Assembly (NCBI GenBank): GCA_030427765.1
Contig: JAUICS010000100.1
Location: 1-5,914, forward strand
Origin: Alphaproteobacteria bacterium
GTDB lineage: Bacteria > Pseudomonadota > Alphaproteobacteria > Micavibrionales > Micavibrionaceae
Reading direction: 5' to 3'
DNA: 5,914 nt
Position numbers and translations under genes: made by a program. How positions within the stretch are numbered: the stretch's first letter is position 1; the number at the start of each line of letters is the position of its first letter. Below the pieces are notes generated by a model, which saw only the letters and a list, made by a program, of their open reading frames with translations, had not been told where the DNA came from and did not search any database. This document shows, in pieces, positions 139 through 5,914 of the stretch.

Positions 139-2124
139 TCAACCTGTTCCCGGTTCAGGGCCATCCCGTCCTGAATTTGCACGCAGACTTAATTTGCCAT
201 CCTGCCGACTTCGTACCGCCAAATCGGCCATAAGTGCTGTGATTGCGAGGACGAGCAATAACGTCGCATAGTTATTATTGTCATCATCCTGTTTGTATGA
301 TGTCACCACAACACCGCCGGGAATATCTTCCAGCGGTTCCAAATTCGGCACCACATTGGAAATGTTGTAGGCAAGACGCGTTGTTTCATCGCCGTAATAT
401 CCGGGAGGATGAACGGCATCCATTTTTCCGGTGCTGAGAACCTCGGATGTTAATGCCTGCACATCACGTGATGCGGTTGTCAGACGTCCACGTGCATCCA
501 GTGTCGTCATCGGCGGCAGTGATTTGTTGAGTTGGTCTTGTTGTACAAGCCCCTGGCTATGTGACACAACGGCGCGCATCATTTTTAGGAATAATTCACC
601 GGATAGCGGCAGGTTGGACCATTCCATATTGGCGGTTGTGTGAACCAGAATGACCCAGCCGTCGCCCTGTTTCTTTGCGGTGACAAGCGGCGTACCATCA
701 TCCATGCGTGCCCATATGTGATCGTCAAGATCGGCACTTGGCTGTGGCAATACAAGCTGTTTTACGCGAACGTTATCCGGAATTGCTAAACCATGGAATG
801 GCGACGATGCTTCAAAGTCCGCAATTTTTCCCTGACCACTTCCGGCGAGTGAACCGGCCGTTGATTTTTGTCCCTGACGCAGTTCAACCGGAACCAGATT
901 ATCATTCGGGTTCGCGGCCAGACGCGGACCGGCAAAACGTAGCAATGTGCCGCCTTTTTCAACCCATTCTTTAAGCTGCGTTCTTTCACCTTCAAGAAGA
1001 GATACTTCATCTGTTGCAACTATAACCGATAGCGGCAATTTCATAATGGCTTCAATTGACCCGCGGTGCAGGTCGGTAAATGGCTCAACCGCCTGCTGCA
1101 CAAAATTTGCGCCGTCACGCAGAGGTTCCGTGGACCCTGTATCGATTACGCCAACGGAACGGATTTGCCAGTTTTCATCCAGAAGTAGTGTTGCACCTGC
1201 CGTGTCTTCGCCATTAATGCTGACACGTGCCAATTCCTTACGCAGTTCCGGCGGTATATTAAAGGTCACTTGTGTTTCTGTCTCGCCATCTGCAAATACA
1301 GCTTCGCCCTGAACAAGCGGACGACCGGCCTCATTACTCGCGGTAAGCGTGAGTGTTTCTTCGCCGCTTCCGGATGGACGTTGAACCTTCACAATCATTT
1401 TACCGTCAGCATTGTCGACAAGGGATAACAGGTGCGGCTGCGTTACGCCATCACCTTGGAATATTGTCACCGGTCCCATGTCCTGCAATGTTTGCAAGAA
1501 TGCGGTTCCGTCACCGGCCAAACCGTTACTTAACCAAAACACGGACGGTGTCTGTTGCATGCCGGATCGAAGATCGCGCAAAGCGGTGATACGGGCATCG
1601 CGATTGACCGGCCATGGTTTTGGTTCCAGCTCCATCAACACGCTGCGGGCCTCGCTAACATCCATGATTGAAAATGTCTGGTCATCGCCCGGTGCAGCGG
1701 TAGCGGTCGGAACAATCACAACCTGACGGCCTTGTGATTCGGCGGCGTTCAGAAGTAATTCAATCTGGCGTTTACGGGCATCCCAGTTTGCGGCGGATGC
1801 CCACCCGTTATCAACCGTAATGACAAGTGGTCCGGTTGTATTGGCGCCGTACTGGTTATGATTGATTTGCGGGTCCGCACCGGCAATGGCAACACCCATA
1901 ATGGCGCTAAGGCATAGCGCCTTTTGCCATTTCGGCATGGTAAGCGGTTTTTGATGTTTCGCCAGTGCCTCGAACATCAGACGGAAGCCCGGGAAAGAAA
2001 TTTTTGTTGGTTTTGGCGGTATCGAAGATAACAACCACCATAGCATAGGTAATGATGCACCTGCGGCACCAAGAAGCATTGGGGCAAATCCAGCACCAAA
2101 ATCAACAGGTCCTACGCCGAACAT
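139..2124 (-). CDS. BatA-like membrane protein with vWA-like and GATase-like domains, lacking DUF4159
   Basis: Seen from the ATG at 2124, the protein has 661 residues. Residues 12-50 match the BatA-type N-terminal module: a hydrophobic segment ending in LWWLL, then a basic PPKPTKISFPGFRL loop. A second membrane segment lies at about 67-83. A vWA-like domain follows (about 99-225), with a degenerate metal site: DNGWA at 105-109 and LSNG where TDG is usual. A GATase-like domain covers about 325-520 (EWVEKGG at 386-392, FAGPRLA at 397-403) with no nucleophile cysteine visible. A final membrane helix lies at about 619-637, before a short polar tail. From family knowledge the bulk should be periplasmic. 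Many alphaproteobacterial relatives continue into a DUF4159 domain; this one stops, and DUF4159 is encoded separately at 4792-5604. The ATG has no good Shine-Dalgarno sequence. The frame is open upstream to 2214, and an ATT at 2184 would add a signal-like segment (681 residues). Molecular function is unknown; a role in envelope assembly or stress together with MoxR partners is inference. Confidence 0.88.
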   Translation of the reverse strand: MFGVGPVDFGAGFAPMLLGAAGASLPMLWWLLSSIPPKPTKISFPGFRLMFEALAKHQKPLTMPKWQKALCLSAIMGVAIAGADPQINHNQYGANTTGPLVITVDNGWASAANWDARKRQIELLLNAAESQGRQVVIVPTATAAPGDDQTFSIMDVSEARSVLMELEPKPWPVNRDARITALRDLRSGMQQTPSVFWLSNGLAGDGTAFLQTLQDMGPVTIFQGDGVTQPHLLSLVDNADGKMIVKVQRPSGSGEETLTLTASNEAGRPLVQGEAVFADGETETQVTFNIPPELRKELARVSINGEDTAGATLLLDENWQIRSVGVIDTGSTEPLRDGANFVQQAVEPFTDLHRGSIEAIMKLPLSVIVATDEVSLLEGERTQLKEWVEKGGTLLRFAGPRLAANPNDNLVPVELRQGQKSTAGSLAGSGQGKIADFEASSPFHGLAIPDNVRVKQLVLPQPSADLDDHIWARMDDGTPLVTAKKQGDGWVILVHTTANMEWSNLPLSGELFLKMMRAVVSHSQGLVQQDQLNKSLPPMTTLDARGRLTTASRDVQALTSEVLSTGKMDAVHPPGYYGDETTRLAYNISNVVPNLEPLEDIPGGVVVTSYKQDDDNNNYATLLLVLAITALMADLAVRSRQDGKLSLRANSGRDGPEPGTG

Positions 2125-2190
2125 CCCTGCAAGATATCCGGATACTCCAAGTACGGCGGCTGCAAATAAATACCTTATTTTAATTGTTCG

Positions 2191-2223: not shown

Positions 2224-2595
2224 TTAAGATGGCGCGGGTACAACGTCCGGTCCTGTTTTATCGGCCTTGATGTCTGCACCATCGTTATCGTCACTTTCGC
2301 CGTCATTGTCGCGGCCAAGTGCTTTTTTAATCTTTCGGTGATCACCGTCACGTGACCATCCCCATGCCAGTAATCCACCAACCAGTAATGCGCCAAGCCA
2401 GCCCGGAATTAATGGATCTTGATCAACGCCTTTTAATGACCGTGCATCACGGTTAATGATACCCATCCAATTGATACCGCCGCGTTCTGCGCCTGCATTG
2501 GCATCTAGTGTACGGACATCAGGAACCCATACCTGTCCATCGCCATTGACAACACGTACAACGGTTCCACCCGTTTTGGCGGAGATAGGTTGCAT
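2224..2595 (-). CDS. Detached C-terminal segment of the vWA/GATase-like protein (membrane anchor and acidic tail)
   Basis: The ORF has 123 residues from the ATG at 2595. It lies in the same frame as the 668-residue gene upstream, separated only by that gene's TAA and four codons (T E T I). Its content is what I recall as the conserved end of the alphaproteobacterial vWA/GATase-like family: TGGTVVRV (residues 8-15), then a WMGI motif (43-46), then PLIPGWLGALL leading a single membrane helix (about 62-81) that ends in SRDG. After this comes a charged tail (85-123), basic first, then Asp-rich, and probably cytoplasmic. No Shine-Dalgarno sequence precedes the ATG, so independent initiation looks weak. 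Translation by reinitiation 12 nt after the stop, or by readthrough, is possible. The next gene begins 100 nt downstream at its ATG, or about 40 nt downstream if ATT is used. The best reading is one gene broken by a nonsense codon, not a separate small gene. Confidence 0.7.
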   Translation of the reverse strand: MQPISAKTGGTVVRVVNGDGQVWVPDVRTLDANAGAERGGINWMGIINRDARSLKGVDQDPLIPGWLGALLVGGLLAWGWSRDGDHRKIKKALGRDNDGESDDNDGADIKADKTGPDVVPAPS

Positions 2596-2607
2596 AATCG
2601 TTTCTGT

Positions 2608-4614
2608 TTAAATGACATCGGCCAGTTCTTTGGTCTGATTTAATCCGACACTTATATTCCGTGTGAATATGTTTTCGCCGCTGCCTTGTGTAACGGAATA
2701 AATACCTTCCTTATCGTAAGGGTAGGTGATTTGCCAGACGCCCGGTGATACCTGCTCGGTAAACTCAACCGTTTCTGTCTGGCCATCGGGACGACGAATT
2801 TCAATAGCGGCCGGTTTTTCCTCCGACATTGTCTGGCGACGAATAATCAGTTCTGAATTACCAGTCGCAGATAAAAATAATGCTTCTTCTTCAAGTTCTG
2901 GACTTTTCATGAGCCAGTGTGATGTTCTGCGCAGCAATTGTGCGTCCGGCCCGCCACCTTCAAAGCCGGCTCCCCATAACGGGAAACTATCCGACATCAA
3001 CATGGCAACGCGGCCTTCACCCTTGTTATCGACAACAAGCAGCGGTTTTCCATCAGGTGTTTGTAATAATGTTCGGCCGGAAGTCACCTCACCGCTGACG
3101 GCTCGTGTCCATGGACCCCATGTTGGTTCGGCCCCATCACCAAGACCATTTAATCCGCGTATGACGGGATGACGGCCACCAAGATCGGTTGCAGATGGCT
3201 TGAAAATTTCTTCGGTCACACGTCCGTTCGGTCTGACCGGAAGTATAGACCCGATTGGCGTAGTATGCAGGCTACGTGAACCTGCATATTCCGGCCCGGC
3301 CACGACAAGAAGCGAACCGCCTTTTTCAACATAGTCGGCAATGCCTTTCAGATAGCGCGCGGGCAGTGTGTTGAAATCTTCATAATGATCAAACACGATC
3401 AAATCGAATTTCTCCAATGCTTGTCCAAATACTTCATGTAGCGGTACACGTGTCAGGGCGAGTTCCTTGCGTGGTGTATCATCAAAATCTTCACTCAGGC
3501 GCATGGACATAAAATGAATAACGTTACTATCCGGATCGGATTGGTAGAAATCACGAAGTTCGCGCACACTACCGTTAATTTTTCCTGAGATCATAAGAAC
3601 GTTAAGATCCTCACGTACGCCATCGATTTTGACAACAATACGGTTGTTGACGTCGGTGATTTCACCATCCAGGGCTTCGGCTTCAACGGTAATAATATTG
3701 CTGCCTGGATTGGCAATTGTAATTTGTGTTTCTATAACTTCACCCGGCACGGCTTTAATTGTATGTGCGCCTTCCGCGCCGCCCGAAATGCGGACACTTA
3801 TCGGTTCACCAGATTGTGCGCCGGTGCCTTTATCATCAACCTTGAAACGTATGGTATGTTTTTCCCCGACCAGACCGAAACGTGGTGAGGCGATCAATTC
3901 GGCAACGCGGTCTTTTTCATCCGGTTGTCCGATAATGAGTGTATGAATGGGGACATCGTTTCCGAATGGTGACAGGTCCGGAACATCATGAATTTGCCCA
4001 TCGGTTAGAACAATAATGCCGCCAAGGTGATCAGGATTAAGGTTATCAACCTTGCCTAAGGCTTCGAATATTTTTGAACCGCCATTTGCACCATCAAGTG
4101 TTCCGTCAACCGGCACAAAACGAACGTTTATATTTGGAATTTTACCAAATTGCTCCTGCAATTGACGTTTAACCTGCTCTCTTATGGTCGCACGGTCGGT
4201 GATACTATTACTGGCTGTTTCATCGACCATCACAACAATTTCGGATGGAAGCTGGTCATAATTTTCTTTTAGGATTTCCGGATTGGCAATCATCAGTGCC
4301 ATCAATCCGCCGGCCACGGCATAAGGTGCGGCAACTTTCAATTTACGGCGATAGGCATAAAGGGCAAATAATAATGCAAGACCGCCAAGCCCGCCGCCGA
4401 TTAATGCGCCGGTGGATGTATTAAATGGTGCGCCGGGATTAAATGTAATGGATGTATCGGTAACGCGTTTGGCGGGATCAACAAGTTCAACACGGCCAGC
4501 ATTTTCGGGTTCCAAATTTGGTTGTTGCGCATGGGATTCGTCAGCCGAAAAGACCTGAAATGCTAGTGCGGCTGGAATAGTCAGTTTCGCTATGCTGGAG
4601 AGCCTAGATAGCAA
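2608..4614 (-). CDS. vWA and GATase-like periplasmic membrane protein, cut short by an in-frame TAA
   Basis: The start is a TTG at 4614, supported by AGGGA 7 nt upstream. The product has 668 residues. A signal peptide (about 1-29, cleavage suggested after SHA) is followed by two membrane segments (about 68-88 and 94-110) joined by a short basic YRRKLK loop. A vWA domain covers about 123-235, with a MIDAS-like DETAS at 131-135 and LTDG at 203-206. An Ig-like beta stretch covers about 240-333. A GATase-like domain begins near 337 and includes EKGGSLLVVAGPEY at 430-443; no catalytic Cys is apparent, so it is probably not an amidotransferase. A C-terminal beta-rich part ends at ELADVI. Relatives, as I recall them, continue past this point through a TGG motif to a last membrane helix; here that portion is the ORF at 2224-2595, behind an in-frame TAA. 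As terminated, the protein loses its C-terminal anchor. It is the first gene of the minus-strand operon. The vWA domain suggests protein-protein contacts, and BatA/BatB-like systems work with MoxR ATPases; its exact role is unknown. Confidence 0.88.
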   Translation of the reverse strand: MLSRLSSIAKLTIPAALAFQVFSADESHAQQPNLEPENAGRVELVDPAKRVTDTSITFNPGAPFNTSTGALIGGGLGGLALLFALYAYRRKLKVAAPYAVAGGLMALMIANPEILKENYDQLPSEIVVMVDETASNSITDRATIREQVKRQLQEQFGKIPNINVRFVPVDGTLDGANGGSKIFEALGKVDNLNPDHLGGIIVLTDGQIHDVPDLSPFGNDVPIHTLIIGQPDEKDRVAELIASPRFGLVGEKHTIRFKVDDKGTGAQSGEPISVRISGGAEGAHTIKAVPGEVIETQITIANPGSNIITVEAEALDGEITDVNNRIVVKIDGVREDLNVLMISGKINGSVRELRDFYQSDPDSNVIHFMSMRLSEDFDDTPRKELALTRVPLHEVFGQALEKFDLIVFDHYEDFNTLPARYLKGIADYVEKGGSLLVVAGPEYAGSRSLHTTPIGSILPVRPNGRVTEEIFKPSATDLGGRHPVIRGLNGLGDGAEPTWGPWTRAVSGEVTSGRTLLQTPDGKPLLVVDNKGEGRVAMLMSDSFPLWGAGFEGGGPDAQLLRRTSHWLMKSPELEEEALFLSATGNSELIIRRQTMSEEKPAAIEIRRPDGQTETVEFTEQVSPGVWQITYPYDKEGIYSVTQGSGENIFTRNISVGLNQTKELADVI

Positions 4615-4791: not shown

Positions 4792-5604
4792 ATGGAACGG
4801 AATAAGCGCAATTCGCCGCGCCGATCACTCGGGCGTAAATCTTTAACTATGTTTGTTGGTGCCGCATTATCATCTTTAATGTTGGCGTTCGCACCTGCCG
4901 CGCTCGGTCAAACACCGGACCCGGTTGAGCGCGCACAGGTCCTTCGTTATATGAACGGAACATATCTTGCCTACGTCAATTCGGGGACGGAACGCATTAA
5001 CCGCGACAGTGAACGGGGATTAACGGCACTGCAGGCTGCGTTAACGGATAAAACGTCTCTCGACCCTAACGCGGAAATTGTATCAATTGATCTGGATAGT
5101 GACACGTTGTTACCTTTCAAATTTTTATACTGGCCTGTGACCGATGATGATCCTGTTTTATCGAAACGTGCGCAGGAAAAGGTGCAGGCATTTATCGACG
5201 ACGGTAATGTAATTATGTTTGACGTACGCAGCACGAAACCGAATTTGCTTGAGGTTGTATCGCGCGTTCTTGGCGATGTAAACCTTGGTCCTTTAACGAC
5301 AATGCCAGGTGACCATTCATTGACATATACGTTCTATCGTACCGATGGACTGGCCGGTACATTTAATATCGACCCTATCTACATCCAGACACCTAATACG
5401 TCACGTTCCGAGGATGTGACATCCGTAATCATTGGTCGCCGTGATTGGGCAAAAGCATGGGCAGGACGCAGTATTGCGCCGAACAGCGAAGGGTTCAAAG
5501 CCGCATTGCGCGCAGGGATGCATGCGGTTTTATATGCCTACACCGGCAATTATCAAAAGGCAAAATTTGAAATGCGAGAAACGCTTGATAACGTAAAGCG
5601 GTAA
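4792..5604 (+). CDS. Exported stand-alone DUF4159 protein
   Basis: Taken from the ATG at 4792, the protein has 270 residues. A basic N-region (RRSLGRKS) and a hydrophobic stretch (20-37) form a signal peptide, with cleavage likely after ALG at 37-39, so the protein should be periplasmic. The rest matches DUF4159 as I know it: LRYMNGTYLAYVNSG (51-65), a TALQAALTDKTS segment (78-89), LYWPVTDD (112-119), FIDDGNVIMFDVRS (134-147), VIIGRRDWAKAWAG (212-225) and a final LYAYTGNYQ (247-255). DUF4159 has no established catalytic activity. It is usually the C-terminal domain of a BatA-like membrane protein in alphaproteobacteria, so this gene probably supplies in trans what the 139-2124 product lacks. 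An in-frame ATG at 4738 would add 18 residues but reads through the shared leader repeat and precedes the predicted transcription start. The AGGGA before 4792 is only 1 nt from the ATG, so the exact start is uncertain. The next gene follows after 19 nt. Confidence 0.88.
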   Translation: MERNKRNSPRRSLGRKSLTMFVGAALSSLMLAFAPAALGQTPDPVERAQVLRYMNGTYLAYVNSGTERINRDSERGLTALQAALTDKTSLDPNAEIVSIDLDSDTLLPFKFLYWPVTDDDPVLSKRAQEKVQAFIDDGNVIMFDVRSTKPNLLEVVSRVLGDVNLGPLTTMPGDHSLTYTFYRTDGLAGTFNIDPIYIQTPNTSRSEDVTSVIIGRRDWAKAWAGRSIAPNSEGFKAALRAGMHAVLYAYTGNYQKAKFEMRETLDNVKR

Positions 5605-5611
5605 ATGATTG

Positions 5612-5616
5612 AAAGG
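5612..5616 (+). promoter_or_regulatory. Ribosome binding site of the histidine-rich protein gene
   Basis: AAAGG is followed by 7 nt and then ATG at 5624. An in-frame GTG at 5621 is also possible but sits too close. The ATG at 5619 is out of use because it is followed at once by TGA. Confidence 0.6.
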
Positions 5617-5623
5617 CCATGTG

Positions 5624-5914
5624 ATGAGACGATCAGGCTCAAAAAATATCTTAGTGTGGGGCGGTATACAGCTGGTTGCTTTGGCATTCGCCTTTAATGC
5701 TCATGCGCATGGTGATGGACACGGACATTCGCACACGCATGGCCATTCCCATGCTGCTCCGGTTCTAGAATTTGACACGGAACGTTTGTGCGGCAGTGCT
5801 GATGCACTTCATAAATTGAAGGATGAATGTTACGGCCGTTTTTCACAGAATATGGTTACCTATGCCGAAACCGCGTCCCGTCCATTTTTCGCGGCGGATT
5901 CATTGCAAGATGCG
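5624..5914 (+). CDS. Exported histidine-rich protein, probable metal binder (partial, runs off right edge)
   Basis: The frame is open for 97 codons from the ATG at 5624 to the right edge. Residues 1-28 form a signal peptide (RRSGSK N-region, hydrophobic core 9-24, cleavage likely after AHA at 26-28). The mature protein opens with a run of alternating histidines, seven in residues 29-43 (HGDGHGHSHTHGHSH), the kind of stretch that binds Zn, Ni, Cu or Co ions. Beyond it are two cysteines (56 and 69) in a segment I do not recognise. It begins 19 nt after the DUF4159 stop, with its own ribosome binding site, so the two are probably co-transcribed. His-rich N-termini also occur on ZnuA-like or CDF-type metal proteins, but no such domain can be confirmed from this fragment. 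Export and metal binding are well supported; the specific role is unknown. Confidence 0.75.
   Translation, partial: MRRSGSKNILVWGGIQLVALAFAFNAHAHGDGHGHSHTHGHSHAAPVLEFDTERLCGSADALHKLKDECYGRFSQNMVTYAETASRPFFAADSLQDA

Follow-up and report, generated by a model that had tools for sequence, protein, structure and literature searches.

The stretch of DNA analysed here, hereafter the window, makes up contig C24 in full (5,914 bases); the contig belongs to a metagenome-assembled genome (MAG) from the alphaproteobacterial family Micavibrionaceae. On the minus strand of the window, a GATase-like gene for a predicted cell-envelope membrane protein is interrupted by an in-frame TAA. The open reading frame (ORF) at 4614..2608 starts with TTG and encodes 668 residues before it is terminated by TAA 2608-2610; past this stop the frame is open for a further 127 codons (123 when counted from the ATG at 2593-2595), up to a natural TAA at 2224-2226. 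With the internal TAA counted, the frame totals 796 codons and is otherwise continuous. A first-pass annotation of the same DNA had placed the 668- and 123-residue frames in one phase, separated by a TAA, and its coordinates hold exactly. At the junction the sequence is ELADVI-stop-TETIMQPISAKTGG, and the equivalent part of the homolog P0002, ...ELANVI-T-TKEILQPIATQTGG, aligns with it without a gap.

Two Pfam families match the part of the gene ahead of the stop (the body): DUF7408 (32.5 bits, cut-off 27) and GATase1_like (29.1 bits, cut-off 27). The VWA-like and beta domains listed in Table 1 were called by eye from the secondary structure of a model, without a Pfam match. At a threshold of 1.6, a Kyte-Doolittle scan picked out two N-terminal segments; the hydrophobic stretch in the part past the stop (the tail), IPGWLGALLVGGLLAWGW, stayed below this threshold and is predicted to be a membrane helix, its counterpart in the model of P0002 being a 19-residue helix at 721-739. 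That model, built from 74 sequences with a predicted local distance difference test score (pLDDT) of 83.6, replaced an earlier model from 7 sequences (pLDDT 60.9). The stop column corresponds to residue 651 of P0002, which the model places between a beta-sandwich ending at 638 and a helix at 657-663, that is, in a predicted inter-domain linker. A Foldseek search with the whole model returned dextranases and Nir2 as its top PDB rows, which were set aside with template modelling scores (TM-scores) of at most 0.31, and the tail domain had no fold match of its own.

Table 1. Features of the window, in bases of the forward strand
Feature	Position	Strand	Basis or remark
Body of the interrupted gene (TTG start, 668 codons)	2611..4614	-	ORF, Pfam, hydropathy, model of homolog P0002
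Features of the body: signal peptide, two membrane segments, VWA-like and beta domains, GATase1-like domain, beta-sandwich		-	signal peptide by eye
In-frame TAA stop	2608..2610	-	Ser, Ala, Thr or Pro in homologs at the same column
ATG 12 nucleotides past the stop (spacer 2596-2607)	2593..2595	-	
Tail, in frame with the body; holds a small C-terminal domain, a predicted membrane helix and a charged end	2224..2607	-	helix by homology to P0002 721-739
BatA-type membrane protein gene	139..2184	-	BatA 25.4 bits, just below the cut-off of 25.9
Start of a DUF58-like gene, 43 residues, running off the contig edge	1..129	-	by eye, from comparison with the DUF58 starts in L142 and L145
DUF4159 gene, divergent, intact, ending in TAA	4738..5604	+	Pfam 80.3 bits

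A protein search gave 103 proteins, headed by that of the window itself; the nearest other one is P0002, which has 770 residues and is 55 percent identical over 93 percent. Homologs were aligned across the stop column in two sets. The wider set consists of 104 records minus eight (P0001 and P0104, which are the window's own; P0007, P0099 and P0100, which are short; and the distant P0101-P0103), and all 96 homologs are continuous at the column, each with at least 82 residues from there on; the residue at the column is Ser in 46, Ala in 44, Pro in 4 and Thr in 2. The second set, made of 29 relatives' loci (all of L002-L030) and 17 proteins picked from the protein-search matches, is continuous in 46 cases out of 46, with Thr in 18, Ser in 16, Ala in 11 and Pro in 1. 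Because homologs cross the stop column free of gaps, the two ORFs correspond to one protein, and no aligned relative has the stop; the same gap-free alignments rule out a frameshift or an insertion at the junction. This bears out the first-pass annotation, which had regarded the two ORFs as parts of a single family protein divided by a stop; the family landmarks that it had noticed in the downstream ORF are visible in the homolog alignments of the tail. The two comparisons that it had proposed were carried out: the readthrough product aligns with both sets without a change in length, and the TAA is found in none of the aligned relatives. Homologs ending at ELADVI ahead of a separate downstream gene, which it had named as the mark of ordinary gene fission, are not seen among the 29 aligned relatives' loci, none of which is split there.

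Among 95 genomes, 61 (the window's own included) match the body, and every listed match is without an internal stop. A search with the tail gave a stop inside the match in 8 of 37 rows. The stops that could be read, in G006, G005, G051 and G090, all lie past the natural end of the protein. The remaining rows are those of G004, G086, G071:C1 and G093; for G004 and G086 the stretch displayed is out of the gene's frame, and the gene of G004 is continuous in the alignment (L017). No second strain was found, the window protein being a cluster of one in the protein search, and the 95 genomes searched hold no other member of the source genus. A first scan of genome contigs gave no match; in a second scan, with alignment, none of the best 80 of 397 loci was near-identical, many of the loci being titled Rhizobium, Roseibium or Acetobacteraceae and the window's own or very near genomes being possibly absent from the records.

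The tail bears the marks of a coding sequence. Its codon usage scores 0.458 bits per codon in frame 0 and is negative in the other five frames, a value within the range of 0.26-0.57 obtained for same-length pieces of the 668-codon part, this range being favoured by a codon table derived from that very part and two neighbouring genes. In a comparison using six homologs, the ratio of tail to body identity is 0.79-0.98 in the 6 pairs that include the window, versus 0.60-0.99 in 15 pairs of intact homologs. The branch of the window in the tree is not long (0.33, against 0.41 for P0002). No relaxed constraint was detected past the stop, a result that fits a pseudogene only if the change is very recent. 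The stop must therefore be very young, or an error, or harmless to the translation of the tail.

As a control for stops, 967 predicted proteins (about half of genome G023, plus its cassette) were aligned to the window and 40 other contigs of the assembly (245,945 bases in all). The 62 aligned places cover 18,461 codons and contain stops in three: the window's TAA, L185 and L166. The last two have three stops each, and since their opposite strands are open for 130 and 171 codons (158 and 185 codons in the reference genome), we take these stops to be antisense shadows. No other sense-strand in-frame stop occurs in the 62 places: stops are rare in the scanned part of the assembly, and the genetic code looks standard. 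TAA is the ordinary terminator of both the DUF4159 gene (5602-5604) and the tail (2224-2226), and an alternative genetic code was ruled out on these grounds. A lenient control for starts, run on the other contigs only, found ATG, GTG or TTG at or before the alignable start in 26 of 26 genes. On the window contig, DUF4159 and BatA each aligned in a single frame.

The order of genes in the window is a divergent DUF4159 gene, then the interrupted GATase-like gene, BatA and a DUF58-like gene, the last identified by eye; within the reach of the contig, the other cassette genes appear intact. Same-clade relatives have a divergent DUF4159 opposite the GATase-like gene, followed by BatA, DUF58 and DUF4175 (by Pfam in L141, L142 and L145; by matching frame sizes and a DUF58-like start in L144). 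L143 has no DUF4159 match, and the contig of L146 ends before BatA. A canonical order, BatA - DUF4159 - GATase-like, is found in L148 (G023) and L147 (G021). The two cassette kinds split in the tree with a support of 1.000, and the window lies inside clade A, with which its protein shares the homology of the body and the cassette order, though not a single continuous frame. Four Micavibrio-family genomes have two GATase-like matches each: G023 (L141 and L148), G020 (L142), G045 (L143) and G048 (L146). The divergent-DUF4159 cassette houses one of the copies in G023, G020 and G048, and the other copy of G023 is canonical (L148). In G045, the cassette adjoins a gene (L143:12729-15041, minus strand) whose protein combines a VWA domain with RTX nonapeptide repeats. 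Past DUF4159, the window also contains a plus-strand ORF at 5609-5914 that begins like a signal peptide and has a His-rich stretch, HGDGHGHSHTHGHSH; it is open at the contig end and has no match in L141-L148.

The beginning of the BatA gene has an oddity of its own. On the minus strand, AAGGGGA (2191-2197), a good candidate for ribosome binding, stands six bases before an ATT (2182-2184) that is followed by a signal-peptide-like sequence. No ATG, GTG or TTG is present at the expected start in the window, whereas L141, L142 and L144 have an ATG shortly past an AGG-type run. The start is either a rare ATT, or another single-codon oddity, or the ATG at 2122-2124, and the missing standard start could speak for an error or for weak translation of the operon.

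The first-pass annotation had listed four causes for the stop without choosing among them; a nonsense mutation and an error stand, and the evidence goes against an old fission and against recoding. Translation in two pieces and readthrough are improbable even when taken jointly. In a two-piece gene, the body would end at the TAA, ribosomes would reinitiate at the ATG that begins at 2595, and the tail would be a small membrane protein rejoining the body. An in-frame ATG 12 nucleotides past the stop, an open and conserved tail and a stop lying in a predicted linker would all suit such an arrangement, but no Shine-Dalgarno-like run is seen by eye before the ATG, as the first-pass annotation had remarked, and intact homologs, too, can have Met at the ATG column (8 of 96 in the wider set, 10 of 46 in the second), so that there is no sign of an evolved start. 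The 29 aligned relatives' loci are all whole, and with the window tail as sole query no free-standing relative besides itself was found among 18 candidates. A profile of 11 tails, which scored only the 7,996 candidates sharing most words, did list 91 tail-only proteins besides the window's own. Five of the 18 that were read start close to the window's junction: P0107, P0121 and P0126 have a Met start at most three residues from the ATG column of the window, P0132 has a Leu start there, and P0163 starts about two residues before the stop column; P0107 (7 member sequences), P0121, P0126 and P0163 lie on contigs of 124, 14.7, 49 and 38 kilobases (kb). The starts of the other 13 are scattered and farther from the junction, however, and of the 91 proteins 62 are on contigs under 5 kb, 4 on contigs of 5-10 kb and 20 on contigs of at least 10 kb, with 5 lacking a length; from their sequences, we read the tail-only proteins as probable fragments and frameshifts. 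A free tail would also have to move an N-terminal domain of about 60 residues across the membrane without a signal peptide. We thus consider a two-piece gene quite unlikely, and hold as more doubtful still a programmed or leaky readthrough, or a bypassing, of the TAA that would yield some full-length protein. The frame does continue exactly past the stop, the tail was constrained until recently, and identical ATT codons precede the stop and the ATG, as bypassing would require, but a match within five codons easily arises by chance. The RNA fold around the stop is no better than that of shuffles (z of -0.83 and +0.98) and thus offers no stimulatory structure, the stop is present in no aligned relative while TAA ends both DUF4159 and the tail, and the 40 own contigs scanned, a fraction of the genome, encode 4 transfer RNAs (tRNAs), none of them ochre-suppressor-like. 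There is little chance that the stop is real and functional, this lineage making the protein in two parts, or in a major short and a minor full-length form, divided precisely at an inter-domain linker, with the envelope module's last membrane anchor as a separate or optional piece.

Far more weight goes to the other two causes. The TAA may stem from faulty base calling or assembly in a metagenome contig of thin coverage, the organism's gene being whole; we rank this second, as unlikely but well within consideration, because the source assembly is fragmented (1,986,922 bases in 429 contigs, a MAG 77.48 percent complete) and is the sole source for the base. Contigs C1 to C41 measure from 6,455 down to 5,572 bases, the numbering going seemingly by size with C1 as the longest. 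The stop occurs once, with no close copy confirming the TAA, the tail is as conserved as in intact pairs, and the missing standard start of BatA would be a second single-codon oddity within 430 bases. Against an error stand the absence of other sense-strand stops over the 18,461 codons, the standard starts on the other contigs, where errors are thus not common, and the single-frame alignments of the window's BatA and DUF4159. The alternative is that the stop is real, a recent private nonsense mutation that interrupts the gene before its predicted C-terminal domain and helix; we put its chances at about even and rank it first, since nonsense alleles of recent origin are frequent in bacterial genomes and the controls turned up few other faults. 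Several observations weigh against it. Besides the five tail-only proteins that start near the junction, the base rests on one assembly of one strain, with no same-genus member to confirm it, and an undecayed tail fits a sequence error equally well. The low rate of stops elsewhere argues as much against frequent pseudogenes as against frequent errors. What is visible of the neighbouring genes is intact, giving no hint of relaxed selection, and this incomplete genome yielded one family match and no further copy of the gene. Broken or partial copies exist elsewhere: G036:C45:33734-35394 consists of two overlapping frames (461 and 343 residues) with a break at about query residue 445, pieces occur in G047, G006 and G091, a second short piece of 209 residues in G053, and a divergent frame of 632 residues in G026.

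If the TAA at 2608-2610 is a recent private nonsense mutation, ribosomes would stop there and the protein would end after 668 residues. The truncated product would keep its two N-terminal membrane segments and its folded domains and would lose the small tail domain and the last anchor, with a function that is probably reduced or absent. Because the stop falls in a predicted linker, a protein truncated there might still fold and retain some activity. The earlier suggestion that loss of the anchor would free the periplasmic domains from one attachment point is to be qualified: the loss of an anchor is a prediction, and two predicted N-terminal membrane segments remain. A real stop would add one more recent gene interruption and hint that some lineages may do without the C-terminal domain and anchor of this little-studied envelope protein; an error would show that single-codon oddities in short metagenome contigs call for a look at the reads. 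Of more value is a by-product of the analysis: in addition to the canonical cassette, some Micavibrio-family genomes have a second BatA/DUF58/DUF4159 cassette in a different order, both kinds being seen together in G023.

Among known relatives, P0002, encoded on a 272-kb contig, resembles the window protein in clade and domain order and differs in having no stop, with Thr at the column. The canonical Micavibrio-family copies (L147 and L014 of G021; L013 of G051) are homologous and have a whole frame of 717 residues; they differ by the one-strand order BatA - DUF4159 - GATase-like (L147) and by belonging to a paralogous clade. The GATase1-like structures 3rht and 3soz are chains of about 250 residues that comprise that domain only. 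Homologs occur in genomes titled Rhizobium, Roseibium, Acetobacteraceae and others, and the literature consulted, for context only, contained no study of the intact protein under its own name. The nearest studied system is presumably the alphaproteobacterial MoxR - DUF58 - BatA/DUF4159 envelope operon, whose partner families and gene assignment we assume here; in Rhizobium leguminosarum, we take RL3501 and RL3502 to be the BatA/DUF4159 and GATase-like genes. The RL3499-RL3502 operon is reportedly the subject of a 2011 paper by Vanderlinde. RL3499 is tied to envelope integrity and cell shape in PMC3893208, and the operon in the title of reference 10 of that paper. Compared with the Rhizobium envelope operon, the window copy belongs to a separate clade, its cassette is ordered differently and its GATase-like gene is interrupted.
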